Source: Telopea speciosissima
Lineage: Eukaryota > Streptophyta > Magnoliopsida > Proteales > Proteaceae
Reading direction: 5' to 3'
Assembly: GCF_018873765.1 (NCBI RefSeq)
Contig: NC_057919.1
Location: 24,840,698-24,904,697 of the forward strand
Length of the DNA stretch: 64,000 nt
The notes under the pieces were generated by a model that was not told the origin of the DNA, did not search any database, and worked only from the letters and a program-made list of their open reading frames with translations. Shown here in pieces: positions 24,130 to 51,490 of the stretch. Every line of letters starts with the position of its first letter. The first letter of the stretch is position 1. The position numbers and the translations under genes are program-made.

Positions 24130-25701
24130 GTATGTTTTATCAATCTTGCTTTGTAACATTAAAAGAGATCTTTGTACTTGCCTGCACAGGCTTTATCTAA
24201 TTAAGTTATTTATACTTTGTTCTCCATGAGTTTCACTGTGTAGTACTAGATCCAAATATGCAATAATACCATCATTTTAGGGCAAACTTTGGTTGCCCCC
24301 ATCTCTTCTCATTGGGCTCCTGGCGTGAAAGGTGACTGGGAAATTTGGGATTCACGATCGGTTGATTTGGACTGATTTGGGTCTAATACTAGGAAAAGGG
24401 GGGGGGGGGGTGGCGCTGTAATCTGTATATTGGTTCCATAATCTTTCCATTGATTGCCCCGTTTTCTTCCTTTATCAATGAAACCCCACTTTGTTCATTA
24501 GCATGTATTGTGGCTTCACGTCATATCAGCTCATTGCCTTGCTCTTGTACTGGGAGTTTGCTTGCAAATGGGTTCTTAAGCTGAAAAATGCTTCTTCAGA
24601 TTACAATTATAATTGTTGAGGATGAAACACAACATATTCAACTTTCTACTGTAAATTACAAGATCAGATAAGGAGGAAAAGCAACGAATTTTTGCTATGC
24701 AGGCATGGGTCTACTGGGTTGTTCAACCCTTCTCTGGTTAATATGGAGACAATGCTACAGCCTACAGATCTGATCAGCACCTTCAAATTTTGAACATCCA
24801 TCTTAAAATTATTCAGAGGATTCTAGATCTGTTGATCTTGTTTCAGGTGGATGCCCTGAATTTGAGCACACCCAGTGACTTCCGACATCCCGAGTGCTTA
24901 CATTGGATCCAAACGATTGTTACGAAATTTTACGAATAATTTTATCATTTAAGTAGATAGAATTTTCATAAAAAAGAATAGTAAAATACCTTATACTGTT
25001 AATTATTGTAGCCCCACGTCAGTTAAATTAAAATTGCAACATATGGTCACAAATTTTGTCAACCATTTACGACTTCGAAAAGGTACGAGGATAGCAACCC
25101 ACTACCAACACTCCAGTGTTTGTGTTTTTTTTTTTTCTTTTCTTTTAAAGGGAACAACACACTTCAGAGTTAGTTTTAACTAAGACTGTACCCTTGAGGT
25201 GTGACCTTGATGAATAGAAAAAAATTAAATGGCCATGTTGTAGTTACATAAATACATTTGGAAATTAAGTACTCCGGTAACATTTAACCACTTTAGTTAT
25301 TGTTTATGCCTTTAAAATAACATTAAATAGGAGCAATTCTATGAGGACCACCAGTATACTGAGCGGACTACTCCTTTTCCACTTTAGTTATTGTTTATTG
25401 CCTTTCAAATATCATTGAAAATAGAAGCAATTCTATGAGGACCACCAGGTACACCTAAACTGAGCTGACTCCTTACTCTCACCTAATGCTTCACAAGAGG
25501 GGAAAAAAATAAAGGAAAAACTAAGGTGCCTATTCAATTCAGTGGTCAGCTAGGACACATACGGAGATCTTGCGGCCCTCTAAGCATGTTCCCTGTCTAA
25601 TACCTGTGGTGTTACCATGAGAGATGGGAGGTGGGGGGAGAATCATCACACACACACACACATTAAGAATGATACGAATGATAAGAATGATGACATTTGA
25701 A

Positions 25702-25850
25702 CAAGGCTCCCACCACTGTGGGGTCTGGGGAGGGTCATAATGTATGCAGCCTGACCCCTGCTTTTTTGCGGAGAGGCTGTTTCCAGACTCGAACCCGTGA
25801 CCTCTTGGTCACAATGGAGCAACCTTACCGTGGCACCAAGGCCCACCCTC
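25702..25850 (-). mobile_element. Au-type plant SINE
   Basis: The minus strand begins with GGGTGGGCCTTGGTGCCACG and contains ACCAAGAGGTCACGGGTTCG, the tRNA-derived A and B box region typical of Au SINEs. It ends GGGAGCCTTG. It is flanked by a perfect 16 bp target duplication AATGATGACATTTGAA (25686-25701 and 25851-25866). The corresponding place in Aurora copy B lacks it, so it inserted after the segmental duplication or was never in that copy. Confidence 0.93.
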
Positions 25851-26213
25851 AATGATGACATTTGAATATTATTCAGATTATGCGAAGAAATAAGAAAAAT
25901 GGGAGAGTTGGACTGTGCATTGTAATACACTCTTATATGCAAATAGAAATTGCAGTTTATGATGTCACATTGAGCAAATAGAGAAGTTACATGTAACATT
26001 GACTGGAAACAACATCTTGATTACCATGGTAGTATGTCTGAATATGACTGCAGACAACAGCATACATCAAAATAAATTTGCACATTGTCTCTGAGCAGAA
26101 TTTCCACATTTAATTGCATCAGCAACGATATTGCTGATGTACCATCAATCGAAGAACATCCCTCGCCCTGCTTCAGGGTTTTACACCAGAGAAAAAAAAT
26201 CCCCATCTGCAAT

Positions 26214-29200
26214 TCAACCACACCACCTGTAGATGCCAGATGGGTCTGCATTTTGAACAATCCATGGATGCTCAAGAAGCTTGTGTAGTGGGAGACGTTC
26301 TGAAGAATCCTTGACAAGCATCTAGTATCCACAAGTGATTCAAAACTCAAAACTTTTTATGTTCAGGAACATGACAAATCTCAAATGTTCATAGACAGGG
26401 GAAGGAGATCTCACCTGACTAATAAGGTCCTTTGCTGCAGAAGAAACCATTGGTTTTGAAGGAAACTTGAGATCCACTTTTACTATCCTGCATGTGTTTT
26501 AACCATCTACATTAGCATCTTATGGGGAAAGGATTGGACCCAACAGAAATAGTTTCAGATATTAGAAATCTTATGGTACAGAATGTAGATTGAATTCCAA
26601 TCGTTGGAAAAATATGCCAGCTCCAAAAGTTCACATTCATTGTGAAAAACAGAAATTTCTCACTAACGTATTGAGAATAACATTGTCAATGTTCTTTTTT
26701 CTCTACAAATCATCATGAGAGAGAGAGAGAGAGAGAGAAAGAGACTGCAAAACTAGCAATTTCTGTTGAAAGAAGAATACATCTTCTAACAAGAGGGAGC
26801 AGCTTGCAAAATTGGTAGTTTGGACAATATCTCATGTTCTGTTTACCTTCTATATGTGTCGGAGCGTTCTTTCGCTAATTATCATGAGAGAGAGAGAGAG
26901 AGAACAAAACTAGCATTTTCTGTTCAAAGAAAAATATAGTTTCTAACAAGAGGGAGCTTGCAAAATTGGTAGTTTGGACAATTTTTCATGTTCTGTTTAC
27001 CTTCTATATGTGTCTGAGTGTTCTTTTGCTTCAAATGGGGGTACCCCATAAAGGAACTCATAGCAGAGGACACCAAGGCTCCAAATGTCAACGCTTGCAT
27101 CATGCTCTACACTCTCGACTGTAAATGGAATGACTATTTTACTAAATAACCAAACCAGAATATATAGGCAAAGCAAAAAGATCTGATTAAAGAGTTTTGT
27201 TCCTACACAACTGAGCATACCCATCTCAGGTGGAAGGTAATCCAGTGTACCACACATGGTCCGCCTGCGATTAAATGTATGCACAGACCAACCAAAATCT
27301 GCAATTTTCAGTTCACCCTGTGGATAGCATCAAGCATTGATAATAAGCGCATGAAATGCCATGTAATCAATAAGAGGAAGTGGTAACTCTGAGCCAAACT
27401 TGAGATTATCACCTGCGCACCAATCAGAAGGTTCTCCGGTTTGATATCTCTATGTATAACATGCTTCCCATGGCAATATATGAGTGCCTGTGCTAATGAT
27501 GAAATATACTGTAACACCACATTCAAATTCCGTAATTTCTAGTTAGGTAAAATAAATAATTAGGGAAATTTGAAGGAGATAAATGAATTCATGTTACTTC
27601 ATCAATAGTGACAAACCGTCAGCGATATACGGATAGAATAATGAGAAACTGTGCCAAGTTCATCATATGTAGAGGGCTCACCGTGGCAGCACGCTTTTCA
27701 CTGAAATACTTGCATTTCTGAAGTTCCTTGTAGAGCTCACCTTTGGCTGCGTATTCTAGTATCAAATAAACCCGTGTCTGCAATAATTATATAAAACGAA
27801 TAATAATTGGTCAATGGCTAAACATTTGTTCCCTTGAGTCTTGGACTAGAATAAACCTCCATCACCCCCACCAAAAGGTGGAGGGGGAAGAAGTGATGCA
27901 CCAGGCATTGAGATGGTTCAACAGTTTCCAGACCTGATCATAGAAATATCCATAGAGGCGTAGGATATTAGGGTGTCGTAGATGGCTTTGTATTTCAACC
28001 TCCCTGCGTAGCTGATGCTCAACCTGAGACTGCTTGAGCTGGCTCTTGAAAAGTACTTTGAGTGCAACGACGTGACTGCTCTGTTTTGATGAATGAATAG
28101 CCTTATGTTACTTGATGATGGAAAATAAAGACTAAAATACAGATTGCATGAAACTACAAGAGGGATTTTCAATAAGCATGTGAAATGAAACATGCATTAT
28201 ACTTCAAGCTTGAAAAGAAAATGCATAATTTGGGTTTCGATTTTCACAAAAATGCTTACATTTTGAGAACTGTTGAAGTTTATATTGAGCATATAGGGCT
28301 AGTAGGATATCTCCTCAATTAGAATATTCCTTATTCTAATCGAGATTCTCTCCTATGTGTCCCTTTTCTATTTGTAATTAAAGTCAGTCGACTCAGTCCT
28401 AGTTAGTCTATGGTTAGCCTAGTCCTAGTTTGGTTTCCTATTGTAACTATGTCTCTAATTTGTGATTCCTAGTAGGATTAGGAATCCTTTCTTTGTATTC
28501 TGATTCTATATAAATAAAAGCATTGTGTGTGTGTGGGGGGGGGGGGGGCAGTTCAATTTATTCTCTCTAGACAGTCCCCCTTTCTCTCCTCCATCTCCTT
28601 TCTCCTCCATCACCTTCAGTTCTGGTGTTTTAGAGTTCTAATAAGTTACAAGAACAAATGACAAATAAATCATATGCAAATGGAATATTTGGTTTGGATA
28701 GTATGAATTTGTAACTCTTACAAAGCTTTAGTATCTTACTCTACCAAAGATAAACGAAGATCATGGAACACTATATGCAAATGGCAGTAAAGGACGACAC
28801 CATTGATACCATACACAAATCTGGCAGTAGGGGAAGAAAAGATCTGTAAAACCTCGAGATCGCTGAAATTTTGGCAATGTTAAGTACAGACAATGTTGCT
28901 CTTTAACGGGTCGAAGATTCAAGCTGCAAAACCCTCTTTTTCCACACACACCCCCCCCCCCCCCAAACCTTTCTTTATGGGCCCTCACATAACTGCGATG
29001 TCTTTCTGCTTCCTGCTTATGTCTTACTATTCTGGATCTCCTAATTAACTATCATTCGAACAGACAGGCTCTAAATTAAATGATTGATAGATTACAAAGA
29101 CATCCAGTGCGAATTCCACAAAAACCTACCCGATTCAGAAACTTAGAAAGAAAGGGAGAGAAACAAAAGATTCCTCCAAAAAATATGTAATTGAAATTAA

Positions 29201-29760
29201 AAAAAAAAAAAAAAAAAAAAAACCTTCTTTTCCCTCGCCAAATAGACATGACCGAATTTTCCTCTTCCGAGAGGCTTCCCAATGTCAAAATCATTCAGAG
29301 TCCACCTTTTCTTCTCTGCTGGAGAAACCTCTGAAGAAGTCTGTGGAAAAAAAAAACAAACAACTTAAGAGTATCAGAAAGCCACGTCCATCGTAAACCC
29401 AAGAACTATGTCAAATATTCAACGAATCATAACAGATACAGTGTCACTCCAAGCTTGCAAGAGGGAACAATTCAGCCAGAAACTGACCCAAGTAACCACC
29501 CCCTCCCCCAGACATTGCCCAGATTTTCTAATTTGTTAGCAAAAAGAAGAAGGGGTATAAAAAACTAAAGACTGATGGAGATTAGGTTACCCAAATTACG
29601 AACTGACAAGAACCCTAAGATTCCGAGTTTCTTCCAAGCAGGAAATGAAAAAGGGGGTTTAAAAGAAAAACCCTGAGGCCAATGCAAAACCCTAATCAGA
29701 TTGAAACCTAAGATAGATAGATACCTTTTCTTCAGGTTGTGCTTCTGCAGCGATCGCCAT
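26214..29760 (-). CDS. AUR1: Aurora kinase, plant alpha type, copy A (9 exons)
   Basis: A serine/threonine kinase of mitosis; alpha Auroras of plants act at the spindle and cell plate. Exons in transcript order: 29760-29725, 29340-29224, 28080-27934, 27777-27682, 27508-27413, 27317-27221, 27118-27001, 26487-26415, 26321-26214. Every intron is GT..AG, and phases close to 295 codons, about the usual length. The short N-terminus ([12 protein letters not shown]) leads into the ATP loop [17 protein letters not shown], then VALKVLF (catalytic Lys), [12 protein letters not shown] (helix C Glu), [17 protein letters not shown], the activation loop [16 protein letters not shown] with its target Thr, [13 protein letters not shown], and [18 protein letters not shown]. 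All kinase residues are present. Upstream is a GA-rich leader and an AACGG mitotic-type element. Intron 2 holds a solo LTR. The tail RWCG differs from copy B. Confidence 0.96.
28271..28650 (-). mobile_element. Solo LTR in Aurora copy A intron 2
   Basis: A 380-bp block opening TGTTGAAGTTTATATTGAGC and closing AATAAGTTACA is flanked by the 5 bp direct repeat AGAAC (28266-28270 and 28651-28655). A TATATAAATA box lies near 28508, so the LTR itself reads on the plus strand, opposite to the host gene. The matching intron of copy B has an empty site with one AGAAC (near 50191). No internal retrotransposon sequence remains. Confidence 0.88.
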
Positions 29761-29860
29761 GGGGAGAGGGAGAGAGAGAGAGAGAAAGAACGAGCGACGA
29801 AACGCAAGGGGACGAAACAACGAAGGAAACGTTGTATTGTTTGGACATCTTCACCCAGGT

Positions 29861-29871
29861 TACAACGGTCG
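29861..29871 (+). promoter_or_regulatory. AACGG core, candidate mitotic (MSA-like) element, copy A
   Basis: TACAACGGTCG about 100 bp upstream of the Aurora start codon. M-phase promoters of plants use the MYB3R site YCYAACGGYY, which works in either orientation. Here the AACGGYY core matches but the upstream C does not. The same 11 bases are preserved in copy B (51428-51438), although the surrounding DNA has indels. Confidence 0.5.
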
Positions 29872-29945
29872 GATTTGTGTGGATTTACACGTGGTCTGGT
29901 CAGCAGCCAGCTTGCACATTTGAATTAGCATTCGCGAGGGAAGTA

Positions 29946-30259
29946 TACACTTTTTTGTGTAGTTTTGTAAAACCAAACCTGGATTTTTGAGTATTTTTGT
30001 AAAGGAAAATCCAAAAATGGGTAATCATGTAATTTACTTAAATTTTGTAGCATAGAAAATGTATAAAACTGAAGAGAAGATAAAGACAGACAAATATATA
30101 TTTTTTGTTTACTTGAAGAAAAAAGAAATCTTAGAAAGTAATCAAAATGGAAGACCAATTGTTATCACACAATGGACCGTGAGGGGTGGTACCCATATCT
30201 TTTACCTGGATTTGGAGGCGCTATAAACCCTAATGTCCTTTGCCGACAATTCTGTCAGA
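29946..30259. other. Junction DNA between Aurora copy A and the LINE
   Basis: About 300 bp of AT-rich DNA. It has no counterpart beside copy B and no visible gene. Confidence 0.5.
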
Positions 30260-30854
30260 TTTGGGTATGAAAGAGATGACTTATGCCTCTATTTATCTTG
30301 GATGTCCAATATTTGTTAATATAACAAAAGTCTATCCTTCAAAAGACTAGTAAATAGAGTTCAATGTAAGTTAGCTCAATGGAAATTGCCGCTTTTATCT
30401 CAAGTTGGTATATCAGTCCTTGTTAAATCAGTGTTGAATTCTATCCCAACATACCTTATGTCATGTTTTTTGGTGCCCAAGAATATTTGTAATAAGTTTG
30501 ATTCAATATGTTCAAAATTCTGGGGTGAGGAAAAGGATGGGTGTAGAGAAAGTTATCACTGATTTCTTGGTCAAGTATTTGCAAACCCAAACATCTGGGT
30601 GGCTTGGTTTTCGCCTAAACCATGCCACAATGAAATAGTTCTTATTAGACTAGTATGGAGACTTCTTAAGAATCCCTCAACCCTATGGTGTATAGTCCTT
30701 AAAGCTAAGTATTTTCCTGACTCAAATATTCTTGATTTTAACTTTGTTTCAAAGCTTGGTTCTTATATTTGGAATAGCATTGTTCATATATCCTGCCTAG
30801 TCTTAAAAATCTTAATTGTGTGTTGGAAAATTGGTAATGATAGACTTATTAATT
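30260..30854 (+). pseudogene. L1-type LINE remnant, left part (split by a MULE)
   Basis: The plus strand encodes the reverse transcriptase thumb/connection region of a plant L1-type element: YLGCPIF (about 30296), KLPLLSQVGISVLVKSVLNS, IPTYLMSCFLVPKNICNKF, WRLLKNPSTLW and AKYFPDSNILDF, then GNDRLIN, where it is cut by the MULE insertion at 30855. The frame resumes exactly at 38537 with LWNDAWIPHWP after one copy of the target duplication is removed. Internal stops and frame changes are present. Confidence 0.82.
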
Positions 30855-31361
30855 GGGTTTTTTACAATTATCACCCCAAAATCTTTCATATTTATTATTA
30901 CCCCTTAAAAACTTTGAAACAATTGTTACCCTCTCCTGTTACATACTAATAACTAATTGGTCCCCACCGTTACATTTTCGTAACGGAGAGGGTTAGTCGT
31001 GACAGTGTACCGTTGTCACGGATTTTCTAGGACCAAAATGCCCTTTTGGGGTGATAGTTGTAAAAAAAAAAAAAACCACCCTATCACCGGCCACCCCATC
31101 ACCGTCCCTACTCCTCCTCCTCCTTCTTCTTCTTCCTCCTCAGCAACCCCAAACCTTATTTTCTCCACTTGAGGTCCTAATCTAGAAGCTTTTATACGCA
31201 AACACTTTCAACCCCGCCACCTCCGCTGCTCTTCTCCGGATCCTCGGCTCATTGAAACTGCTACGATCATCTTCCCAAAGGCAAGCACTCAGGCTGCTCC
31301 ACCTCCTCCATCACAGAACCAGCACCAGAAATAATAAATGGGATGAAGAGGAATTTCATAC

Positions 31362-31849
31362 CTGTAATACAGAGAAAAGCAGAGAAAGAACATAACTGTG
31401 AAGCACCATGGAAACGTAGATAGTACCCACCATGCAGCCAATGAATCCCAGCGTCAAAGGAAGTCTCTGGTAGAAAGAAGTGTCTAGCATGATGATCAAA
31501 TTGATTCGATTGTTGGCTTCCCAGGAATAAGTGATAAATGTTAACCCATAAATATCCAAAAAGTTAAAATACCTCTTTTGTTGACATGTGTGCAAGCTGG
31601 GTTTTTTGGACCTTTTAAGGGCGAAGAAAGATCCATTAATGATGAAAGCACATCCAAGGGTAAAGCAGATAGCAAATTTCTGAGGCATTTGCACCATTAC
31701 TGGAAGGAACATGGTAAATGCAATGAAAATGAAGAACACTCCAGTCGCCAGGAATAAACCAAAGTACATGAGAGATTTTCCAGAAGGGACATATATAGGT
31801 GGTAGCAGACTGGAGGTTCCCTGGTAAATCCTTCACTCCTTTCGAAACC
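31362..31849 (-). pseudogene. Captured SFT2-type vesicle transport gene fragment
   Basis: Two exon blocks on the minus strand (31849-31573 and 31466-31362) are separated by a retained GT..AG intron. They encode the membrane core of a plant SFT2/Got1-like protein, which serves endosome-to-Golgi vesicle fusion: VKDLPGNLQSAT, MYFGLFLATGVFFIFIAF, LPVMVQMPQKFAICFTLGCA, FFALK, then RLPLTLGFIGCMVGTIYVSM and VLHSYVLSLLFSVLQ. Single-base insertions shift the frame after the first block start and around FFALK, so no intact product is possible. 5' and 3' exons of the full gene (family length roughly 200-240 residues) are missing. It lies inside the Pack-MULE, and the intron shows that capture was from DNA, not RNA. 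Confidence 0.88.
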
Positions 31850-32307
31850 CTACAATATCAAATTGGAGAAAATCAGCAGGTACTACCAGAGAAAAAAGAA
31901 ATCAAAATATATATCAAATTTAGGTAGAAGATAAAGAAGATACTCATGTATTCTTGCTACCAATTTTATTGAGTAAAGAACGCATTGTCTGATTTATCAA
32001 TGCATTAGGAGTCAGCTACATAAATCCTTACCATTATAAGCAGTTTAGCATTGGATAATGAATGGGCAACATTACATACAACCGACCTTCCTCCACTCCT
32101 ACACTCTCAAGCCGTAATCCAGAGAATTCAAGTACCAACTTGCACAAACTTCTCCATGCAGCACATATAAATAGCTAATGGACTATATAAACTTTGAAAC
32201 AAAATTTTAAGAATGTAAACCACTGCTTCACAGTCACAGTAACATACCCATCCTTAAAAGTCCATTACCTCTATTCATAATCTAAAATCTGCTATCTGGA
32301 CCCTATG

Positions 32308-32406
32308 GAACTTTCTATTTCACTGAAGACCAGGAAACACAGCTGCTTGTTCATGACACAACAGAGATGCAAGGTATGAGACTTCGGAAAAATTCCCAAA
32401 CTAGAA

Positions 32407-32444
<38 letters not shown>

Positions 32445-32546
32445 AACTTTCTATTTCACTGAAGACCGGGAAACACAAAGCTTGTTGTTCATGACACAAC
32501 AGAGATGCAAGGTATGAGACTTCGGAAAAAAATCCCAAACTAGAGT
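32308..32546. repeat. Tandem duplication with (CT)n between units
   Basis: GGAACTTTCTATTTCACTGA through CCCAAACTAGA occurs at about 32308-32403 and 32443-32546, separated by a (CT)n tract (32411-32442). It lies in Pack-MULE interior DNA, probably captured intron or flank. Confidence 0.9.
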
Positions 32547-32849
32547 ATCCTCAAACTTTGTGTAGAAACCCCTGCATCACACAGTGTTCATGCTAATTTC
32601 TGATAAATCAAGGAATGTAATTATGATGAAATCAACTGAGTGGTAGGCATAACTATGACTAGGCAAGGAGGGGTGGGGTAGGAAGGGGTTCCTCCTTCAC
32701 CAAAAGAGGGGTGGGTGGTGGTGCAAGGGTCGGGTTTGATAGAGAGAAACCCGAGAGGTGTGGGAGGAGGGCTGTTAAGGCATTAGTTAATTCAGGGGTT
32801 TGAGGGAGGTTAGCTAGGAGAGAGAGAAAATGGTTTTCGACTGGATCAG

Positions 32850-33126
32850 TATTGAGAGAAAGATCATCAAATCTCTTACCTGCCTTTCTCGGTTCAATAG
32901 CACATGTGATAATACATGTGATATAAATCCTGATAGTTATGGAAACTCAATATCCTGGGCACTATAGATAGCACATCTCAACCATAATATTTTCCATTCA
33001 ATATATTGTAAATCACCCAATATTGGGATACCAAATTTACCTTTATCTTGTAAGATATGTAAGTCATGTATTTATATTCCCATTGGGGATTATTAGCAGA
33101 TTAAGGGAATACAATCCAGTTCAGCA
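32850..33126 (+). repeat. 5' LTR of the copia element
   Basis: 277 bp. The inner short palindrome CACATGTGATAATACATGTG is shared with the 3' LTR. It ends CAGTTCAGCA. The terminal dinucleotide at the start is TA, apparently a mutated TG. Confidence 0.97.
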
Positions 33127-33140
33127 TGGTATCCAGAGCC
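33127..33140 (+). other. Primer binding site (initiator methionine tRNA)
   Basis: TGGTATCCAGAGCC directly follows the 5' LTR. It matches the copia primer site TGGTATCAGAGCC with one extra C. Confidence 0.85.
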
Positions 33141-33204
33141 ACAGTTGCTCCATTGAGCCAACTTTGAATTGTTTTTTTTCTTTCTCCTTCCTCTCCCTCT
33201 TGCA

Positions 33205-36200
33205 ATGGAAGGCAGCAATAATCCTGATGTCAATGGCAGTTCCATTGTAGGCACCAACAACTTGGCCGCCACTCTCCCTCTTTCTTCTTCTATTTCTCCT
33301 CCATCCTTGAATCATGCTCATCATTACATCTCCCTCAAACTCAATTCTAAAAACTTCATCTTTTGGCAAACCCAAGTGGAGCCGTTCTTGGATGGACAGA
33401 ACTTATTCAGTCACATAGATGGTACAATTCCATGTCCTTTGGACCCTATTGCGGCTGCCGCATGGAGAAGACAAGACTCCCTTACAAGAAGCATGTTAGT
33501 GTCCTCTCTGTCTGAGGAGGTGTTCCCTTTGATTGTTGGGAAAAAGACTAGCCGAGACATATGGCTAACCCTGCAGACTGCGTTTTCCTCTCCCTCTGAG
33601 AGCCTTTTGATGGCCTTGAATATGGCCTTGATTGATCTGGAGCAGAAATCAGATGAATCAGTGTCCGTGTTTCTCCAACGTGCAAAGTCCATAGTTGATG
33701 AACTTGCTACCGTGGGTTATACCTTGCGGCCTGGGGCATTCAATCTCCATGTGTACCGGGGATTGAAGCCTGGATTTAAATCGATGGTGTCTTCTCTTTT
33801 AACACGGACAGACCCGATTGCTTATGACGATCTACATGCGATGTTGTTGAGTCATGAATTTCTTCATGGCTCCTCCTTAAAGAAACTGAACATTAGTGAT
33901 GCTGCTTCCTCCTCTACTCAGCCTACTACGAATACTGTGCAAAGATCCACATCCTCCAGCCCTTCTGGATCCTCTCCTCCAACCCGTGGTGGTAGGGGAG
34001 GCCGTTGGGGTCGTGGAGGCCCTGGGGCTGCTCGTGGTCGTGGACCTCAGACCAGCTATGGCCGTTTTTGGTGTGCTATATGTAGGCGCACTAACCACTC
34101 TACAAACCGCTGCTTTTATCATCCACAAGCCACCTATTCATCCACTACCTCTTACCCATTTCAGATTCCCAACTCTCCTTCAGCCCATCATACCTACCCA
34201 CACCCGAATGTCACCTATCCACCCTATAGCCATCCAAACCCGCCTCTCCTACCCACACCTCATCCATCGAACACCTTGCCATGGTACCCGGATACAGGTG
34301 CTTCTCACCATGTAACCCCTGATCTCCAGGCTTTTTCACAATATGATGACTATACTGGTAATGACCAATTGCATGTGGGTAATGGTAAGGGTTTGCACAT
34401 TGACCATATTGGTTCCTCCTCTCTACCATCTCTATCATCTCGTTTATTTTCTTTACATAACATTCTTCATGTCCCATCCATCTCTAAGTCTCTTTTGTCT
34501 ATTCAAAAATTTTCACAAGATAACAATGTGTTCTTTGAATTTCACCCATCTCACTTTCTTGTGAAGGATCAGGTAACCATGGAAACGCTGCTGTCCGGAC
34601 CGAGTAAAGGTGGCCTTTATGAGCTTCATTCTTCCAGCCCTTCTGTTCACTCTGATGATCATGGTTCCATTGATTTGTGGCATTCCCGTCTTGGGCATCC
34701 CAATGAACAAACACTTCGTCATACCCTACGTGCTCATAATTTATCTTTTATTAATTTTCGTTTCAAATCATTGTGTAAGGCCTGTCACATGGGCAAGGCC
34801 AATTGTCTCTCTCTTCAATTAACTAGTAGCAAAAGTATTTTTCCCTTGGATTTAATATTTACAGACGTTTGGGGGCCATCTCCAACCCCATCGACTTCCC
34901 ATCATAGGTATTACGTTACTTTTGTTGACGATAATACCAAATTTATTTGGTTCTACCCATTAGTTCACAAATCTGACGTATTTGATATCTTTCCAAAATT
35001 CCAAGCCTTGGTTGAAAGGTTATTTGGAAGGAAAATCAGGGCCATTCAATCTGATTGGGGTGGAGAATATAGGTCCCTTCAAGAATATTTTTCCAGACTT
35101 GGTATTATTCATCGTGTTTCTACGCCACACACACATGAGCAGTAAGGGTCTGTTGAGAGACGTCATCGCCACATTGTTGAGACTGGTCTCACCCTTCTTG
35201 CTCATGCGTTTGTGCCCCAGAAATACTGGCACTTTGCTTTTGAGACTGTTGTTTATCTAATCAATAGAATGCCATCATCTGTATCTCTTGGCATATCTCC
35301 TTTTCAGTTAGTTTTTCACCAAGCACCAAATTATGATTTTCTTAGAGTTTTTGGCTGCCTTTGTTACCCTTATTTACGTCCATATAATAACCACAAAATG
35401 GATTACCGGTCCACAACTTGCGTGTTTCTTGGCTATAGTTCTTCACATCATGGTTACAGATGCATGGATTTACAATCAGAGAAAATATATATTGCTCGTC
35501 ATGTTCGTTTTGACGAGCACTCATTTCCATTCACTAAGTCTTTACCATCTTCCTCCATACCCGTTACCCCTGATGTTCCCATCCCTTGGGCGTCATCCTC
35601 TATGTCTCCACCACGTGCACCATTACCATCTCCCATGCAACACTTATCAGTAGGTTCCCCACCACACACGCCAGTACCCTTGTCTCCACCACAATTAACC
35701 CCAAACCAAAGCCCAACATCCACGACCTTTCCAAACCAAGTTCCCACATCACCATCTACCCCACCATCCACATCGTCACCTGTACCGTTAAAAACTCGGC
35801 CAATTCATGACCTATACAACCCTCAGCCCGCACCACAATCACCCTTACAACCAAACCCGCTGCCTGCACCTTCATTACATCCCATGCGGCTTCGGTCTCA
35901 CACACGGCGGCCTAATGCAAATATTGTTCATCCAGTTTCTACTGAACCTTCTTCCTTTTCGCAGGCAAATAAAGTTCCTGAATGGAGGGCAGCTATGACT
36001 GAGGAGTTCAATATCTTACTCCGAAATGGCACCTGGACACTTGTGCCATGAACTGAGTCCATGAATCTTATTGGCAACAAGTGGGTGTATAGAATTAAAA
36101 GAAAAGCAGATGGTAGTCTTGAGCGCTACAAAGCGCGCCTAGTGCAAAAGGGTTTCACCAACAACATGGGCTTGATTACAGTGAAACATTCAGCCCAGTG

Positions 36201-40921: not shown

Positions 40922-40922
40922 A
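40885..40922. repeat. (GT)n microsatellite
   Basis: Alternating G/T run interrupted once by TTT. Confidence 0.95.
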
Positions 40923-43900
40923 TGCCCATTAGTGACCCACCCCACTGTTTTTCACTCCCCCGCTTCAATATTTGAACCCCTGGTACCCTGTCTGTAACCC
41001 GAGTGGCCCGAATCCATGTTATATCCCATTTTTCTACCTTTTTCCATTATACCCATTTTGATACTCCTTGTTAGGTCAATGAGTTACTTTATCCGAGAAA
41101 TGAGCAATAAGCTCGTAAAATCCCCGAAGATGTCGTCACTCTATCCAAGATTCAAGTAGTAAAAGTCTTTATTACAATCGTTACTCTGTCTAAGACCCAA
41201 ATAATAAAAGTCCCCATTATAATTGTTACTCTGTACGATAAGAGTAAGAAAAACCGATTGTCCGTCTCCACCTAAGCCGCGGGACATTCCACATTTCTCA
41301 TTCATCATTTCTTTACCTTGTTGATATTGTTGGCAAATATAAAATTTCTACTTTTTTCTTTACTTTTGGCACAATTTAGACCATTAAAGTAATTCGTTTT
41401 AGTGTTCATAGCAATTTCTAACTCATAAAAATAGCATGTTTACTTTTTTGTCTTATATTCAATTTACTATAAGTTAGCCTTGCATGTTAGAATATGACAT
41501 ATCATTATGGGAGAACGTTCGAAATCAATAATCTAGTAGAAAGACCAGTTTAACCAGACAAGATGAGGTGCTAACACCTTCCCACTCTCGTAACCTTACC
41601 ACTTACCTAGACTCTTTGACCAGACCATATGAAATTATGTAGTCTTTCTACTCATCTTGGATTGGGCTACCCCCTGTTGGGTCCTAGGCCCGAATCCTAG
41701 GTAGCTACTCCTTTTATTCTAATGTATATGTGGCATGATCCCAAACCCTCATTTTGGTATATGTATGGTATGATCCTAAACCCCCTATCACAAAAAGGGA
41801 CCCAAAATCTCACGGACGCTCTCACAAGGTGGATTGAATCCCGCTCCGGAGGTCCCGATACCCATACAATGTTATATGGAGTGTACAGTGGTAGTCCAAG
41901 GCAGTTACAATGATCAGAATAGTACATATAGCATTATGGATGAGTTGGCAGACTTCTGATAGTGCAAGTATTGACTAGATAGTGTTCCCAACCTCCCCAA
42001 TAGTTATCACAGTGTTCATAGTGGCAGTGACAACATCACATGGGTTTGACAGTGTACACAGAGGTCCCAAAGTGATTAGGAATCATCCAGGGGCAATTTT
42101 ATCATTTCCAAGCATACACAACATTAGAAGGGTATTTATATAATTTTATAGAGTATTGATGGCCTAGACAGGTGACAATCAACATCCAAGGATATTTTGG
42201 TGACTATGTCGGTTACAAAGGTCAATGGAGTGTTGATACAACTCACAAAGGTATTTTAGGCATTTGTCAGTGATGTGGAATGTTGGTAGTGCCAAGCCTA
42301 TGTTCCAGCATTGGGAACCTTATTCCATAGTTGGTCAGTGTTTGGAAGCCTTGGATGAAGGCTAAATGCCTCCAAAATGATGGTTTCATAGGATCTCGCA
42401 CTGGCAACAACTTCGTTGGCATTTTCAAATGGTGAAATAGCAAAAACTGGGTATAGAAATGTACATGAATATTGCAGTTTATGTATGGTCATGCTGAAAA
42501 GAAGCTAAATGGGAGAGGTTTTTGCAATTCTTGGGAGTATTATGGAACATTTGATTGATTTTGGACATATGAAGTGATGATCTCCAAGTCATGAGCATGG
42601 TGCCGCAAACCACGTTAAAAAATTCCTTATAATGAAGGAGATGTAGCACGATTTCTTTCGGGCTCATTGGTTAGTCGGGTGTACAAGTTATGGTACTTTT
42701 GGTATAAACTGGAACAGAGTTTGAACGACACAGAATAGGCCACATCATCAGATTCTTTACAAGAGGCTGAGATTGGGCTGCTCAATATGCGCTAACAAGC
42801 TTTCACGCAAGATTCTATCAGCTGCATTGTGATTGGGCACGCACAAAAGTTTCTATTCACCGTGTCACACGGAAACAAAGTTCTCTACACACTCTTCAAT
42901 GTTTCATGGAACACTGTATATGCCTAGGAAGATTCTATTTTATACACCCAGAATCCATCCGCAAAATCCCTAACGTGTCTAAAGTGATCCAATGGTTGAT
43001 ATAATCTCCCGCTCAAAACTTCCAGATCGGACAGCATAGGTTTGAGTCACCGATAGACCAAGTGGTCCTTGATGCAGTGTAACTCAACCGCACAACATGC
43101 CAATTAGAGGTTCCATTTTATTTCCATTTTATTAGATACTGTGACTTGCACATTTTGTGCACAGTGATCCGACAACCATCAAGCAATCTCACCCATTCTT
43201 TATAGACAGTACCTGATGCACCAATAGGAGCGTGAAACGCATTCTGACAACGTCAAACCCTGAAGTACAAATCATCATGCAATCCTGATCCAACGGATAT
43301 GATGAAGCGCGATTAGCGCTGACCTCTAACATGCATCGCGGGGTCTATATTTTAAGGCACGGCTAGAAATGTTGATCCAGCCATCTCTGTTGAGGGCGTT
43401 AGTGCACTGACGCTACACATGATCAAGCGCGGCTACCATGTTACGCGCACACACTAAATACACCCCCAAGATTCCCTTTTGAGCCCTCTGGTTGACCCAA
43501 CTTCAAATTGACATAACTTCATCAATACACCTCCAATTTTGGTATTCGAACTTGCAGATTACTCGTCTCTCTGAGCTTTACACTCAAGGGAAAATAAGGG
43601 GTTATAGCCTTTATATGCGCAGAATTTTAAGAAATCCCCTTCCCCTTATTATATGCATTTGAACCCATCCCCATTTGTTTTCTTGCAGATGTAAAGCTTC
43701 ATTGAAGCTGCTGATATGATGGAGGAGGCTTCATTTCCTATTCTATGAGGAGTATTGATAAAAAGAGAAGAAAACAAAAGGGGAATAAGGAAGGACGAAA
43801 AGATAAGGAGAAGGCAGAAGAAGAAGAAGAAGAAAGAGGAAGACAATGGTTGCCCACACTGCCAGGGATCACTCAGAGACTCCATACATGTACACACTTG

Positions 43901-44494
43901 AAGATTCTAGTTCTCCATCAAATTGGGAGGAGCTAAAGATTTCAGTGAGCATTTGGTGATCCCAAATTCATCTCCGGACTTAAAAAATCAGAGACATTGT
44001 GTGGTTGTGAGAATTTCTATCTCGTGGCTTTATATTTTGCATTTCTATATACATTGAATATGCTAGCAGTAGGGATACATGTTGAGAACTATGCTGGATG
44101 TGGCTTGACCGTAGGGTATTGTTATAAGCCCAATTATGTTTGTTGAGTTGTCCAGTTGCATCTAGATACAATGAGGGTAACCAGTGGGTGATGGGTACCA
44201 TTTGGGGTAACACCCTTGCCTCTATACATTCGGTGTTGAAGCAGGTTAGGTGTCCTGAGTCATAGGTGTGACTGAAACATCATTTGCCATAGGTGCAACC
44301 TCTCAGTTATATGCTGGGAAAATAGTGATGAGTAGATGCTTAGGTCAATGTAACCATTACTCTATGCACGTAGGCAATCTACTGAAGCACGCATATTTTG
44401 TGTTGTGGTTGTATGCTTGTATTGGAGTGCCTGTCTACAGGATAGATCTACACAGTAAGTATATTGTACCATAGGAATTGTATGCCTGGTTATG

Positions 44495-44770
44495 GTTGAG
44501 AGGAAAGGTGTGTCACATAACTGTGTGTATGTATATCATCAGTAAGGTACTCATAGCAGTGGTTGAGGTTGTGTGCTTCAGTGACAGTTGCACATTGATA
44601 GTGTTAGCCAGCTCCAGTCATACAATTCCTCTGGTTGAGAGGAAAGGTGTGTTACATAACTCTGTGTGTATGCATACCATCAATGATGGCCTCTAATAGC
44701 GGTTGAGGTTGTGTGCTTCAGTGACAATTACACAGTGATAGTGTTAGCCAACTCTAGTCAATAGTGGTTG
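44495..44770. repeat. Tandem repeat, ~140 bp unit
   Basis: GGTTGAGAGGAAAGGTGTGT begins units near 44495 and 44634. Each continues through GTGGTTGAGGTTGTGTGCTT-like sequence and AGTGTTAGCCA. It lies near the right end of the 4.58-kb insertion. Confidence 0.85.
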
Positions 44771-44996
44771 AGATTGTGTGTGTGTGTGTGTGTATCTGAG
44801 TCAGAGTGTTACCAGATTGTATGTTTGAGTGCCTGAGTATTTGAGAGGACTGTATCTATGTTAGTAGGAGTTTAGAGGATCTCAACAAGTGAACTGGGAG
44901 TGAAACTATTGAGGGAAATATTTTTAGAGCCCACTGATTCACTCCTATTAGCCATCACTATTCAACACTTTTTTAGATGGATGCCTTGAATTTGAG

Positions 44997-45388
44997 CATA
45001 CCTAGTGAATCCTGACATCCCTAATCACGCTTATATTGGATCCAGATGAGCCTTAAGAAATTTTGCAAACAACAATTTTACCATTTAAGTAGACAGAATT
45101 GCCATAAAAAAGAATAGCAAAATACCTTATATTGTTAACTATAGTAACAACCACTTTGCTTAAATTAAAATTGCAACATAAGGTCACAAATTTTATCAAC
45201 CATTGAGACTTCAAAAAGGTAGGAGGGTAACAACCCTCTACCAGCACTTTTTTTTTAGCACACCTAGTGAATCCTGATTTCCTGATCATGCTTACATTGG
45301 ATCCAGATGAGCCTCAAAAAATTTTGCGAACAACAATTTTACCATTTAAGTAGATAGAATTGTCATAAAAAAGAATAGCAAAATACCT
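44997..45388. repeat. Local duplication inside copy B
   Basis: A segment starting ACCTAGTGAATCCTGA and running through AAGAATAGCAAAATACCTT occurs at about 44997-45125 and again at 45262-45388. Copy A has it once (about 24878-24991). Confidence 0.88.
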
Positions 45389-47370
45389 TGCTGCAAAAGA
45401 GTGATAATAAAACAAAACAAAAGAATCACACTTGAAAGCAGCAGCTCTAGTCAGCAATTTTTCGGGATTTTTTAAATATATTTTTTAAGTTTTTCATTAG
45501 CAGAAACAGTTCCATGCAAGGCACTTGAGATTAGAGAAGCTAACAAATCATTCCCATGTTATAAACATCTTAAACATTTACAATTCATAAGGAGACAAAG
45601 GTCGGCTCCTAGGAATCAAGCCTTTCTGATCTTATTTGAGGCATTCACACAGGTGAAGATCTTAGAACTTGAGATCTTCCATAATACAATGTGTTTTATG
45701 AAAAATCTGGTTTTCAAGCCTATTTTCAATGGCAATATCTCTGAACTGCCTCTGGTTGCTGCTTGGGTGAGAAAACTATGAGATTAGGTGTAACTTTATC
45801 TTCCTATCCTTCACTTGATAAAAGTACAGTAATCAAAGACTCAAAAGAGAAATCCAATGACAGTAAATAAAGAACCTACTGAATCATACATGAGAGTCTT
45901 GATGGACTCGAACCATCATCTCCTGGGAACAAACCCAGGTGCTCTTCCTTTTGGAGCTAAAGAACCACATATATGCATAATCCATGTTAGTTAAGGGGCA
46001 AGTCTCAACCCTTAAGCGTGCAATTGTCACGCGGTGTGGAGAAAACGAGGGAATGAGGAATTAGGGATGTAGGAAGAAGAGACTGGCAAAGAGGGCGATG
46101 GTTTTGGAGATTGCAACTTTTTGAGGGACTTTTAGCTCGTTGGAAAAAAGAGAGAAAGAGGTTGGTTCATCGTCGGAGACGAGAGATTTGGGTATTGATT
46201 TTGGGTGGGGAAGATGGGTAGTGCAAAATTACATTTAAACCCTTTATTAAAAAATTAATCTAATATTCTTGGGTTTCCTGGATTTTCCAACAATGAATGT
46301 GATTTTACACAAGTATCCTTACAAATTTATTTCCAACTGCGTCCTAACCTGTAGTTTGAAGAGGGTAGTAGGTGTCTTGTTATGTTTGGATAAGTAACAG
46401 ACCCTTGTTACGTTAATAATTCCCCTTATTTTAACCTTTAAAAGTACTAAAATTTTGTAAATATTGGTAATAATACATGTTCTAGAAAACAAATTTTATC
46501 AAGCACCTGTGATGTTCCATTGTTTCAATTGTCTTCTGGAAACGTTTTCAGAACAGGTTTACCAAGCGGGTCAAAAACAGTTTCTCAGCACAGAAACAGA
46601 AAAAACTGTTCTGATGTTTCTAAGCACAGTTTCAGCACAGAAACAGCAGTAAGGTTATCAAGCAGGCACTAAGATTTTAAGAAAGCAGGTTAAAGTTGGA
46701 CTTCTGAAATCAATGGCTGGAACAGAATGATTTAGAACAGAAATAACAATAACTATTCAGTAATAGAACCCGAACAGTATTCTGAACTCAGATTTAAGAT
46801 ACCAGATCAGTAAACAGAGTTTTTAAAGAAGCTGACTTCAAGTAGGAAAGCTGAAATTCGACCAGAAGAGGGTTTTAAACAGAACTTAAAATCAGAATTC
46901 AGAAGAAAGAAACATATGTTACGGACTAGAAACTAGGTTAATAGAATTGAAAAATGAAAAGAATATCAAAACTAGTATCCGCAGGATAGAAAAGAAGAAA
47001 ATTGATTTGATGGAAGAAAAGGAAGATATACTTAGGAATCCCGCCAGTACCTCAACCTGGAATCCTACAGGGTTCGAACGAAAAGAAGAAGAGATTTTGG
47101 GTTCATTTGGTCTATTAGGAGGTATTATTGCCTTATTGGTATATCACAAGGGGCATTATTGGTATATCAGAATAATAAGGGCATTTTGGGGTTTAAATGA
47201 AAATATTTTGGGTGATGTCATCACTTAACAGCTATTTTTGACAGAATGAGTATTTTTGATAGAATCTTCTGAGTTACGAGGAGGGGAGAGTTATTACCCA
47301 ATACCCAGGGGAGGGGTTTGTCATTCGGGGATCATCGAGGGGAGGGGGGAGTAATTTACCCTAAATATAT
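45389..47370. other. Unmatched ~2 kb insertion in copy B, no gene seen
   Basis: No counterpart exists in copy A. The right edge (AGGGTAAATTACTCCCCCCT on the minus strand) resembles a Mutator-like terminus, with clause-like CCCC blocks as in the other TIR elements here, but I did not find its inverted partner. It contains a tRNA-like sequence at 45893-45966 and AG-rich frames (46947-47228, +) without domains. Confidence 0.45.
45893..45966 (-). tRNA. tRNA-like sequence, probably a pseudogene
   Basis: A 74-nt minus-strand sequence folds as a cloverleaf. The D arm is GCTC..GAGC, the T arm is perfect (GATGG-TTCGAGT-CCATC) and the anticodon stem is CCTGG/CCAGG. The acceptor stem GGTTCTT/AAGACTC has one mismatch and one G-U. 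The anticodon loop has 8 nt (GTTTGTTC) instead of 7, so the anticodon is uncertain and the gene is likely non-functional. It lies in the copy B insertion, not in copy A. It could also be an organelle-derived or SINE-derived fragment. Confidence 0.4.
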
Positions 47371-47614
47371 TTTTGAAATTAAGTACAACGGTAACATTTG
47401 ACCACTTTAGTTATTGTTTATGCCTTTAAAATAACATTAAAAATAGGAGCAATTCTATGAGGACCACCAGAGATTGACTTCTTTTCCACTTTAGTTATTG
47501 TTTATGCCCTTTAAAATAGCATTCAAAATAGGAAAAATTCTATGAGGGGACCATCCGAGATGGGAATAAATACCTGAGATGTTACCATCAGAGATGGGAA
47601 TAAAAAATAAGAAT

Positions 47615-47617
<3 letters not shown>

Positions 47618-47663
<46 letters not shown>
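47618..47663. repeat. (CT)n microsatellite
   Basis: An uninterrupted CT run in the 3' flank of Aurora copy B. Copy A carries the Au SINE in the nearby position. Confidence 0.95.
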
Positions 47664-47665
<2 letters not shown>

Positions 47666-47975
47666 TTGAGAGTTGGCCTGTGCATTGTAATACATTCTTA
47701 TGTGAATTGAAATTGCATTTTATGATGTCATTGAACAAATATATAAGTTACATGTAACATTGACTGGACATAAACATCTTGATTACCATGGTATTATTTA
47801 TGTCTGAATGTGACTGCAGACAGCAGCATGCATCCAAATTTACACATTGTCTCTGAGCGAATTTCCACATTTAATTGCATCAGTAACCATATTGCTGATA
47901 CCATCAATCGAGGAACATCCCTGGCCCTGCCAGCTTCAAGGTTTCACAAAAGAGAAAAAGTCTCCTATCTGCAAT

Positions 47976-50900
47976 TCAACACTTGTAGATACCAGAGGGG
48001 TCTGCATTTTGAACAATCCATGGATGCTCAAGAAGCTTGTGTAGTGGGAGACGTTCTGAAGAATCCTTGACAAGCATCTAGTATCCACAAGTGATTCAAA
48101 ACTCAAAACTTAATTATGTTCAGAAACATGAAAAATCTCAAATGTTTATTGACAGGAGAAGAAGATCTCACCTGACTAATAAGGTCCTTTGCTGCTGAAG
48201 AAACCATTGGTTTTGGAGGAAACTTGAGATCCACCTTTACTATCCTGCATTTGTTTAAACCATCGACATCAGCATCTCATGGGGAACGGATTGCACCCAA
48301 CAGAAATAATTAGTTTCAGGTATCAGAAATCTTCTGGTACAGAATGTAGATTGAATTCTAATAGTAGGAAAAATATGCCAGCTCCAAAAGTTCACATTCG
48401 TTGTGAAAAACAGAAATTTCTCACTAACATATTGAGAATAACATTGTCAATGCTCCTTTTCTCTGACTAATCATCACGAGAGAGAGAGAGAGAGTGCAAA
48501 ACTAGCATTTTCTGTTGAAAGAAGAATACATCTTGCAGGGAAAGGATTGCACCCAACAGAAATAATTAGTTTCAGATATCAGAAATCTGAATATGTTGGT
48601 TTGGAGGAAACTTGAGATCCACCTTTACTATCCTGCATATGTTTTTAACCATCGACATCAGCATCTCATGGGGAAAGGATTGCACCCAACAGAATAATTA
48701 GTTTCAGGTATCAGAAATCTTCTGGTACAGAACGTAGATTGAATTCAGCTCCAAAAGTTCATATTCGTTGTGAAAAACAGAAATTTCTCACTAACATATT
48801 GAGAATAACATTGTTAATGCTCTCTTTTCTGTGACTAATCATCGTGAGACAGAGAGAGAGTGCAAAACTAGCAATTTCTGTTGAAAGAAGAATACAGCTT
48901 GAAAAATTGGTAGTTTGGACAATGACTTATGTTCTATTTACCTTCTATATGTGTCTGAGTGTTCTTTCGCTTCAAATGGGGGTACCCCATAAAGGAACTC
49001 ATAGCAGAGGACACCAAGGCTCCAAATGTCAACACTTGCATCATGTTCTACACTCTCGACTGTAAACGGAATGACTATTTTACTAAACAACCAAACCAGA
49101 ATATATAGGCAAAGCAAAAAAAACTGATTAAAGAGTTTTGTTCCTACACAATTGACCATACCCATCTCAGGTGGAAGGTAATCCAGTGTACCACACATGG
49201 TCCGCCTGCGATTAAATGTATGCACAGACCAACCAAAATCTGCAATTTTCAGTTCACCCTGTGGATAGCATCAAGCATTAAGAATAAGCCCATGAAATGC
49301 CATGTAATCAATAAAAGGAAGTGGTAACTCTGAGCCAGACTTAAGATTATCACCTGCGCACCAATCAGAAGGTTCTCCGGTTTGATATCTCTATGTATAA
49401 CATGCTTTCCATGGCAATATATGAGTGCCTGTGCTAATGATGAAATATACTGTACCACATGCAGCATTCCATAATTTCTAGTTAGGTAAAATTGATAATT
49501 AGGAAAACTTGAAGGAGAAATATGAATCCATGTTACTTCATCAATATTAACAAGAAACTGTCAATGATAAACGGAGAGAATAATGTGAAACTGTGCCAAG
49601 TTCACCATAGGTAGAGGGCTCACCGTGGCAGCACGCTTTTCACTGAAGTACTTGCATTTCTGAAGCTCCTTGTAGAGTTCACCTTTGGCTGCATATTCTA
49701 GTATCAAATAAACCCGTGTCTGCAATAATTATTTGAACAAGATAATAACTGGTCAATGACTAAACATTTGTTCCCTTGAGTCTTGGACTAGAATAAACCT
49801 CCATCGCCCCCACCAAAAAGGTGGGAGGGGGGGGGGGGGGAGAAGTAATGGACCAGGCATTAAGATGGTTCATCAGTTTCCAGACCTGATCATAGAAATA
49901 TCCATAGAGGCGTAGGATGTTAGGGTGCCGTAGATGGCTTTGTATTTCAACCTCCCTGCGTAGCTGATGCTCAACCTGAGATTGCTTGAGCTGGCTCTTA
50001 AAAAGTACTTTAAGTGCAACGATGTGACTGCTCTGTTTTGATGAATGAATAGCTTTATATTACTTGATTATGGAAAATAAAGACTACAATCAAGATTGCA
50101 TGAAACTACAAGATGGGATTTTCAATAAGCACTTGAAATGAAACATGCATTATAGTTCAAGCTTGAAAAGAAAAATGCTTACATTTCTAAGAACAAATGA
50201 CAAATAATCATATGCAAATGGAATGTTTGGTTTAAATAGTATGAATTTGTAATTCTTACAAAGCTTTAGTCCCTTACTCAACCAAAGATAAAAGAAAACC
50301 ATGGGATACTATATGCAAATGGCAATAAAGGACGACAACATTGATACCATACATAAATCAAGGCAGTAGGGGAAGAGAAGATATGTAAAACCTCGCGACA
50401 GCTGAAATTTTGGTAATTTTAAGTTCGGACAATGTGGTTCTATAATTGGTCGAAGATTCAAGCTCCAAAAACCCTCTTTTACCACCCCCTTTATGGATCC
50501 TAACATAACTGTAATGTCTTTCTGCCTCCTGCTTATTTCTTACTATTCTGGATCTCCTAGTATACTATCATTAGAACAGACAGGCTCTAAATTAAAATGA
50601 TTGATAGATTACAAAGACACCTAGTATCAGCTCGCATTCCACAAAAACCTACCCGATTCAGAAAATTAGAAAGAAAGGGGGAGAAACAAAAGATTCCTCC
50701 AAAAAAAATGTAATTGGAATCCAAAAACAAACCTTCTTTTCCCTCGCCAAATAGACATGACCGAATTTTCCTCTTCCGAGAGGCTTCCCAATGTCAAAAT
50801 CATTCAGAGTCCACCTTTTCTTCTCTGCTGGGGAAACCTCTGAAGAAGTCTGGAAAAAAAAAACCGTAGATTATCAGAAAGCCATGCTCATCGTAAACCC

Positions 50901-51297
50901 AAGAACTATGTCAGATATTCAACGAATCATAACAAATACATTGTCGATCCAAGAGTTCAAGAGGAAACAATTCAGCCAGACGAAAATTCAAAAATCCCTG
51001 GAAAGAGAGTAAAATCCATGAAACTGACCCAAGTACCCCCCCCCCCCCACATTGCCCAGATTTTCTAATCTGTTAGTAAAAAGAAGAAGGGGGGAAGAAA
51101 AAGAAAGAATGGTGAAGAGTAGGTAGCCCAAATTACGAACTGACAAGAACCCTAAGATTTCAGGTTTCTTCCAAGCAGGAAATGAAAGGGGGTTAAAAAT
51201 AAAAAATCCCTGACGCCAATGCAAAACCCTAATCAGATTGAAACCTAAGATTGATAGATACCTTTTCTTCAGATTGCACTTCTGCAGCGATCGCCAT
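47976..51297 (-). CDS. AUR1: Aurora kinase, plant alpha type, copy B (9 exons)
   Basis: A duplicate of the 26214-29760 gene with the same exon plan: 51297-51262, 50849-50733, 50032-49886, 49719-49624, 49449-49354, 49258-49162, 49059-48942, 48244-48172, 48077-47976. All junctions keep GT..AG, and phases close to 293 codons. The kinase motifs ([46 protein letters not shown]) are unchanged. Over exons 2-8 I count 18 base differences from copy A, only two changing an amino acid (Val to Ile in exon 3, Ser to Pro in exon 8), so both copies look functional and constrained. The N-terminus reads [12 protein letters not shown] and the C-terminus ends SGIYKC, two residues shorter than copy A. Intron 7 contains a partial duplicate of exon 8. 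The AACGG element is kept upstream. Confidence 0.95.
48600..48632 (-). pseudogene. Decoy partial exon 8 in intron 7 of Aurora copy B
   Basis: The acceptor (CATATGCAG) and the first ~33 bases of exon 8 (GATAGTAAAGGTGGATCTCA and on) are duplicated here, about 390 bp upstream of the true exon on the transcript. The copy runs into unrelated intron DNA without the exon 8 donor. Use of this acceptor would truncate the kinase unless a cryptic donor follows. Copy A has no such duplicate. Confidence 0.8.
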
Positions 51298-51427
51298 GGG
51301 GGAAAGAGGAAGGAAAGTGAGTGAGTGAGAGAGAGAGAGAGAGAGGGAGAGAAGGAGAGTGAGAGAACGAACGAGCGATGAAACGCAAGGGAACGAAACG
51401 ACGAAATGAATTAACGTTGGCCCCGGT

Positions 51428-51438
51428 TACAACGGTCG
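51428..51438 (+). promoter_or_regulatory. AACGG core, candidate mitotic (MSA-like) element, copy B
   Basis: TACAACGGTCG about 130 bp upstream of the start codon, identical to the site in copy A. See the copy A site for how it matches the MYB3R consensus. Confidence 0.5.
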
Positions 51439-51490
51439 GATTTGTGCGGGCCAGCTTGCACATTTGAATTAACGTTCGCGAGGAAAGTAT

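Follow-up and report, generated by a model that had tools for sequence, protein, structure and literature searches.

Direct tandem duplication of an Aurora kinase gene beside a phosphofructokinase gene in Telopea speciosissima, with both copies apparently functional

We have analysed a stretch of 64,000 nt from Telopea speciosissima (hereafter the window, meaning this stretch at its full length), which lies within a 72-Mb contig of the 823-Mb host genome. The window has a G+C content of 38.5%, contains not a single N, and carries plant-type genes together with transposons. Past the end of a phosphofructokinase (PFK) gene, it holds two Aurora kinase genes arranged head to tail on the minus strand, each of them within one copy of a duplicated block (Table 1). 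Judged from the sequence, a plant Aurora gene has here been duplicated in tandem in an ordinary way, and both copies are apparently functional.

The duplicated block and its two Aurora genes

When the window was compared with itself by BLAST, the two blocks were joined by a collinear chain of matches in the same orientation, the best single piece of which spans 1382 columns at 90.7% identity (E = 0). The two copies are neighbours, and their introns and flanks remain collinear beyond the coding exons, which marks them as tandem duplicates. The block of copy 2 contains sequence with no counterpart in copy 1 at about 39048-39290, 39594-40108, 40392-44970 and 45249-47361. A short element resembling a miniature inverted-repeat transposable element, with the ends GGCTCTGTTTG..CAAACAGAGCC, lies at 39073-39286 in the block of copy 2 and is missing from that of copy 1.

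The homology begins on the left 110 bp past the PFK stop codon, and it ends on the right 189 bp (copy 1) and 196 bp (copy 2) upstream of the ATG codons. An initial annotation, made from the letters of the sequence, had proposed a direct segmental duplication with breakpoints just after the PFK stop codon and about 185 bp upstream of the Aurora start. The duplication is confirmed by the collinear chain, and both the coordinates and the 185 bp are off by no more than about ten bases. However, the upstream end of the homology need not be the breakpoint of the duplication, because the junction between the copies carries 1.3 kb of other DNA, including a probable fragment of a long interspersed nuclear element (LINE). 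The same annotation described the unit as the gene plus a minimal promoter, which has to be given up: the unit measures 5.8 kb and takes in about 2.1 kb of the intergenic DNA between PFK and Aurora.

The exon models of both genes were verified letter by letter against the window, and they preserve what had been claimed for them, namely nine exons, splice sites and kinase residues in both copies. All introns are of the GT..AG type (8 of 8 in each gene), and the kinase catalytic motifs stand at equal positions in both copies (6 of 6). The protein kinase domain PF00069 was found with E values of 2.9e-75 (copy 1) and 1.1e-75 (copy 2). In the PDB, the top match of copy 1 was 3d14, an Aurora A structure (E 9.4e-123), and the best 60 of its 85 matches are all chains or constructs of Aurora A or B. 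With copy 1 as the query, tblastn on the window found 16 matches with E no higher than 1 and no further Aurora-like piece; 14 of the matches fall on the two genes, one on a decoy piece in copy 2 (48634-48605), and the remaining one (57520-57470, E 0.24) is at chance level.

Each of the two upstream stretches contains one AACGG, the core of the mitosis-specific activator (MSA) element recognised by MYB3R. This core lies in a 22-bp stretch that is identical in the two promoters and occurs twice in the window, once per promoter, although the divergence (K) of the 188 bp preceding the ATG is 0.199. On its two strands, the window has 43 instances of AACGG, so that 0.13 would be expected per 190 bp. 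According to the passages concerned of a review (PMC10042942), Medicago and 20 further legumes have AACGG MSA elements close to their AUR1 start sites, and there is activation by MYB3R1. The duplicated minimal promoter has probably kept G2/M control, as the MSA core suggests, and both copies are presumably expressed.

Table 1. Features of the locus. Positions refer to the window, except for the Aurora matches of the second class, which lie on other contigs of the host genome.
Feature	Position	Strand	Details
Duplicated block, copy 1	24135..29949	.	5815 bp, from the PFK-Aurora intergenic DNA through Aurora copy 1 to 189 bp upstream of it
Duplicated block, copy 2	38974..51493	.	12520 bp, with extra sequence relative to copy 1
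Aurora kinase, copy 1	26214..29760	-	9 exons: 29760-29725, 29340-29224, 28080-27934, 27777-27682, 27508-27413, 27317-27221, 27118-27001, 26487-26415, 26321-26214; 295 aa
Aurora kinase, copy 2	47976..51297	-	9 exons: 51297-51262, 50849-50733, 50032-49886, 49719-49624, 49449-49354, 49258-49162, 49059-48942, 48244-48172, 48077-47976; 293 aa
AACGG (MSA/MYB3R core), copy 1	29864..29868	+	104 bp upstream of ATG
AACGG (MSA/MYB3R core), copy 2	51431..51435	+	134 bp upstream of ATG
Partial exon 7 repeat in intron 7 of copy 1	26727..26876	-	last 30 exon-7 bases and start of intron 7, imperfect, 88% to 26886-27030
Tandem duplication in intron 7 of copy 2	48207..48901	-	48596-48901 / 48207-48535, 88.5%, about 330 bp
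Solo-LTR-like insertion (LTR, long terminal repeat), intron 2 of copy 1 only	28271..28650	.	380 bp, TG..CA, 5-bp target duplication AGAAC
Junction DNA, left part	29950..30854	.	probable plant LINE ORF2 (ORF, open reading frame) fragment from about 30230
Mutator-like element	30855..38526	.	7672 bp, ~470-bp terminal inverted repeats 30855-31326 / 38065-38526 (90%)
Got1/Sft2-like gene fragment in Mutator-like element	31359..31832	-	PF04178, E 5.1e-13
Copia LTR retrotransposon inside Mutator-like element	32850..37765	+	LTRs 97.5% alike, ATCAG either side, open frames broken
Junction DNA, right part	38537..38973	+	probable LINE fragment continues, stops at start of copy 2 block
PFK gene region	20538..24025	+	ORF matches only; stop 24023-24025; outside duplicated block
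Aurora matches of the second class (presumably beta-like)	C6:61586843-61588283 and small contig C237:6250-7679		two copies

Coding constraint, splicing and divergence

Across exons 2-8 (744 bp), the two genes differ at 18 positions, of which 16 are synonymous and two nonsynonymous (V55I and S246P). The initial annotation had given the same count, which is exact and leaves out exons 1 and 9. Exon 1 holds two replacements (A7V and P9S). In exon 9, two codons differ silently, codon 292 differs by R/K, and the copies are unequal by 6 bp just before the stop, with C-termini of RWCG in copy 1 and KC in copy 2. This sole coding length difference is in frame, and neither frameshift nor internal stop was found in the 882-888 bp of either copy; the frame disruption that had been named as a danger to the annotation did not appear.

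Over 291 codons, the Nei-Gojobori method (NG86) gave a dS of 0.107, a dN of 0.0059 and an omega (dN/dS) of 0.055 (bootstrap 0.011-0.144), and a maximum-likelihood codon model gave a dS of 0.075 and an omega of 0.091. Values of omega fixed at 0.5, which is roughly the expectation for one copy neutral from the start, and at 1 were both rejected (2dlnL 12.2, p 4.7e-4 and 2dlnL 25.7, p 4e-7, respectively). Therefore, constraint on both copies through most of their history is supported. This agrees with the earlier claim of purifying selection on both proteins, for which a ratio well below 1 had been proposed as a check, and the dS of 0.075-0.107 likewise lies far from the saturation that would have spoken against a recent origin.

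Intron 7 of each copy carries decoy splice sites, which the initial annotation missed. In copy 1, the decoy 5' splice site (last exonic base 26847) is identical to the real donor over the 23 bp compared, and exon 7 read on to this decoy is predicted to run into an immediate stop, leaving 236 aa. In copy 2, the duplication covers about the first 37 bases of exon 8 and, with them, a decoy acceptor whose first base is 48632; this decoy precedes the real acceptor. A reading frame continued from it would end after 255 aa, with 400 nt left to the exon 8/9 junction, and such a transcript is a probable target of decay. The exon 7 relic of copy 1 may be older or younger than the gene duplication, with 10, 11 and 8 differences over 108 columns. 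For the internal duplication of copy 2, there were 18 differences versus 24 and 25 over 299 columns, a weak hint that it may be somewhat younger than the gene duplication. The claim that both copies are intact thus stands for the open frames, and it presumes correct splicing because of the decoys in both copies.

The same decoys, with that of copy 2 placed ahead of the real acceptor, would fit the alternative that one copy is a decaying pseudogene whose open frame has survived by chance. However, a pairwise omega of 0.055-0.091 with 0.5 rejected, and coding sequences with no disruption and a lone in-frame length difference, are hard to bring into line with decay, and we regard this alternative as unlikely.

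In the non-coding DNA, the pooled introns except intron 7 gave a K of 0.127 over 1682 sites (singly 0.06 to 0.19), which is comparable with the coding dS and far above dN. Intron 7 (K = 0.345) was left out of the pooled value, since its internal duplications make the alignment unreliable. The segments between PFK and Aurora gave K values of 0.10-0.24. The LTRs of the Copia element between the copies differ by a K of 0.026, which is below the divergence between the copies, and the element is therefore younger than the Aurora duplication. The solo LTR in intron 2 of copy 1 also postdates the duplication, because copy 2 holds the empty site near 50179. Accordingly, the word 'recent', which the initial annotation applied to the duplication, is right as far as the distance from saturation is concerned, but it is tempered by the non-coding K of 0.06-0.24 and by an age greater than that of the Copia element. 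By these estimates, the duplication is well short of saturation, yet not very young.

Junction DNA and the course of the duplication

If the DNA between the copies is taken without the Mutator-like element and without one of the two copies of the 10-bp target duplication, 905 + 437 bp (about 1.3 kb) remain. This junction contains a reading frame that we take to be of LINE origin from its motifs; it gave no Pfam match above the cut-off. The frame resumes across the reconstructed empty site of the Mutator-like element and breaks off at the block of copy 2. The Mutator-like element is flanked on both sides by the 10-bp target duplication CTTATTAATT, and its inverted repeats gave an inverted match of 474 columns at 90.3%. 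It is older than the Copia element, which is nested in it. Outside the Copia element, it contains no ORF of at least 200 aa, so that a transposase may be absent. Nothing shows that the Mutator-like element caused the Aurora duplication. Elsewhere in the window, LINE pieces with RNase H-like domains lie right of copy 2 on opposite strands (53208-53531 and 56157-55720; PF13456, E 1.4e-14 and 2.2e-12), and further LINE pieces lie at 7227-7982 (zf-RVT) and 17005-17412 (RVT_1).

We consider it very probable that a presumably alpha-type Aurora gene beside PFK was duplicated locally and directly, and that both copies have been kept as functional kinases under purifying selection. The starting state would have been a single alpha-type Aurora gene next to PFK. 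A 5.8-kb block, comprising the gene, its 3' intergenic DNA and about 190 bp upstream, would then have been duplicated locally in direct orientation. An illegitimate event, such as break repair or unequal exchange, would have left the junction with its roughly 1.3 kb of non-homologous DNA. Purifying selection would since have retained both kinases, with dosage or partial redundancy as the likeliest reasons; we favour these reasons because both copies keep the MSA (MYB3R) core and few protein changes have accrued.

The tandem direct layout is also the typical form of a false duplication, in which the assembly sets two haplotypes of one locus in tandem. However, repetition within the window was confined in the self-BLAST to the block after PFK. 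Moreover, a silent divergence of about 0.1 and a divergence of 0.10-0.24 on the PFK side would be large between alleles. Nested insertions flanked by target-site duplications are particular to the junction, the window is free of runs of N, and the locus is internal to the large contig. An assembly artefact is accordingly most improbable.

As to the mechanism, on the one hand, the block of copy 2 abuts the middle of a LINE-like frame that is otherwise continuous across the Mutator-like empty site, and the PFK side of copy 1 is also seen in Arabidopsis. Both would fit a templated insertion, in which patch-type repair of a broken LINE, located upstream of the original gene, would have used that gene as the template for copy 2, and copy 1 keeps the ancestral flanks on both sides; such a course would differ from the duplication described above in mechanism only. 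On the other hand, the remainder of the LINE was not found right of copy 2 by nucleotide match, and the last LINE piece gave there only a 13-residue protein match (E 7), so that templated insertion needs an extra deletion. The classical model would instead make the upstream flank of copy 2 ancestral and that of copy 1 chimeric. We hold templated insertion to be a real possibility, though we would stop short of calling it probable. Two other routes were rejected. Against recombination between flanking LINE copies, comparison of the junction LINE with the block flanks at the nucleotide level brought up just one 13-bp match of chance quality (E 0.55), and at the protein level the rest of the window gave nothing convincing (best non-self E 0.086). 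An origin by LINE 3' transduction was also discarded, as copy 1 has no LINE ahead of its block.

Several points weigh against a local duplication with both kinases kept. The junction, with its 1.3 kb and a LINE-like frame that ends at the block of copy 2, misfits the simplest unequal crossover, and the upstream flank of copy 2 showed no match to the junction DNA in the self-BLAST and the flank comparison. The divergence of introns and flanks is uneven (K 0.06-0.24), and in view of this, gene conversion between the Aurora copies may have taken place. A very recent functional loss of one copy may escape the pairwise ratio, and the decoy sites in both copies might lower correct splicing. Finally, only 133 of 1374 candidates were scored in the search of the host genome for other close copies.

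Related genes, gene order and known systems

That search, made with the Aurora protein, gave 138 matches. Eleven of the scored matches, at 69-97% identity, are the exons of the tandem locus; four, at 59-64%, come from a second Aurora class that is present twice; and none of the 123 others exceeds 43%. Judged by the matches scored, the tandem genes thus appear to be each other's closest relatives in the host genome. The second class, which we take to be beta-like, fits the alpha/beta split by its identity of 59-64%, and the tandem pair is presumably of the alpha type, to which its neighbourhood points.

The two beta-like copies share a block of 2.27 kb at 92.3% (C6:61586439-61588699 and C237:5840-8111), and over 783 bp of exon pieces they show 15 silent and 4 replacing differences (dS 0.096, dN 0.0065), both rates being near those of the tandem pair. 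The copy on C237 could be thought a haplotig of the C6 copy; this was unsupported, as 50 kb compared from each shared little beyond the block, namely one collinear piece (74%, 184 columns) and four non-collinear ones (78-93%, 108-308 columns). The closeness of the dS of 0.096 to that of the tandem pair (0.107) may be a coincidence, and both values carry large errors because they rest on about 15-19 silent differences each. It is a doubtful reading that two distinct small duplications doubled both Aurora classes at a similar time, with all four genes kept under constraint; if true, Aurora dosage would have risen in a coordinated way with no duplication of the whole genome. Less likely still, and in our view very unlikely, is that the decoy donor of copy 1 and the decoy acceptor of copy 2 make the tandem pair self-limiting through splicing.

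Within the 64 kb, 12 local tandem duplications of 76-331 columns, 79-99% alike, were seen (for example, 2243-2708, 10040-10608, 12391-12745, 19032-19336, 19780-20002, 44493-44760 and 48207-48901), which suggests that short-range duplication is frequent in the host genome.

In the PFK region, three of the five plus-strand ORFs tested matched PF00365 (20538-20774, 21359-21706 and 22540-22908; E 5e-4 to 9e-7), each alone being under the gathering score, and the ORFs 21402-21635 and 23648-24022 gave no Pfam match. The next recognisable gene found past copy 2 lies right of the window on the same contig (C4) and starts about 22.6 kb beyond the block; it encodes a gamma-glutamyltranspeptidase (PF01019 in three of four ORFs tested, E 6e-25 to 7e-59). 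PFK on the left and transpeptidase on the right agree with both unequal crossover and templated insertion. Arabidopsis locus codes follow chromosomal order. In the passages of the sources concerned, AUR1 (AT4G32830) and PFK6 (AT4G32840) have adjacent codes, as do GGT4 (AT4G29210) and PFK1 (AT4G29220) (PMC12012799, PMC12294930, PMC12038154). The neighbours found here and both Arabidopsis pairs could be accounted for by an ancestral order PFK-Aurora-transpeptidase from which two Arabidopsis segments lost different members.

If both copies are expressed, the locus would lend itself, as a small natural example, to the question of why two copies of a mitotic kinase are retained, and the interest is greater as the host has also doubled its other Aurora class, with a similar silent divergence. 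If they are not, the locus is a local case of tandem duplication that leaves general principles unchanged. Our literature search found no paper joining the plant Aurora kinase AUR1 with tandem duplication, which is not proof of absence.

Among known systems, Arabidopsis also keeps two alpha-Aurora genes, and AUR1 adjoins PFK6 by code as Aurora adjoins PFK here. However, AUR1 and AUR2 (AT2G25880) lie on different chromosomes by their locus codes, whereas the Telopea pair is a local tandem. The element in the junction resembles a Pack-MULE in its long terminal inverted repeats, its target duplication within the 9-11 bp range and its captured Got1/Sft2 gene fragment, and it differs in sitting in the junction LINE and in being broken by a Copia element. 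The maize p1/p2 (P1-wr) cluster, as presented in the relevant passages of PMC2686159, is likewise a case of plant genes duplicated in tandem; a chimeric gene there contains filler DNA, and end-joining and transposition were proposed. P1-wr consists of eleven near-identical repeats, whereas the Telopea locus consists of two copies with about 10% silent divergence.

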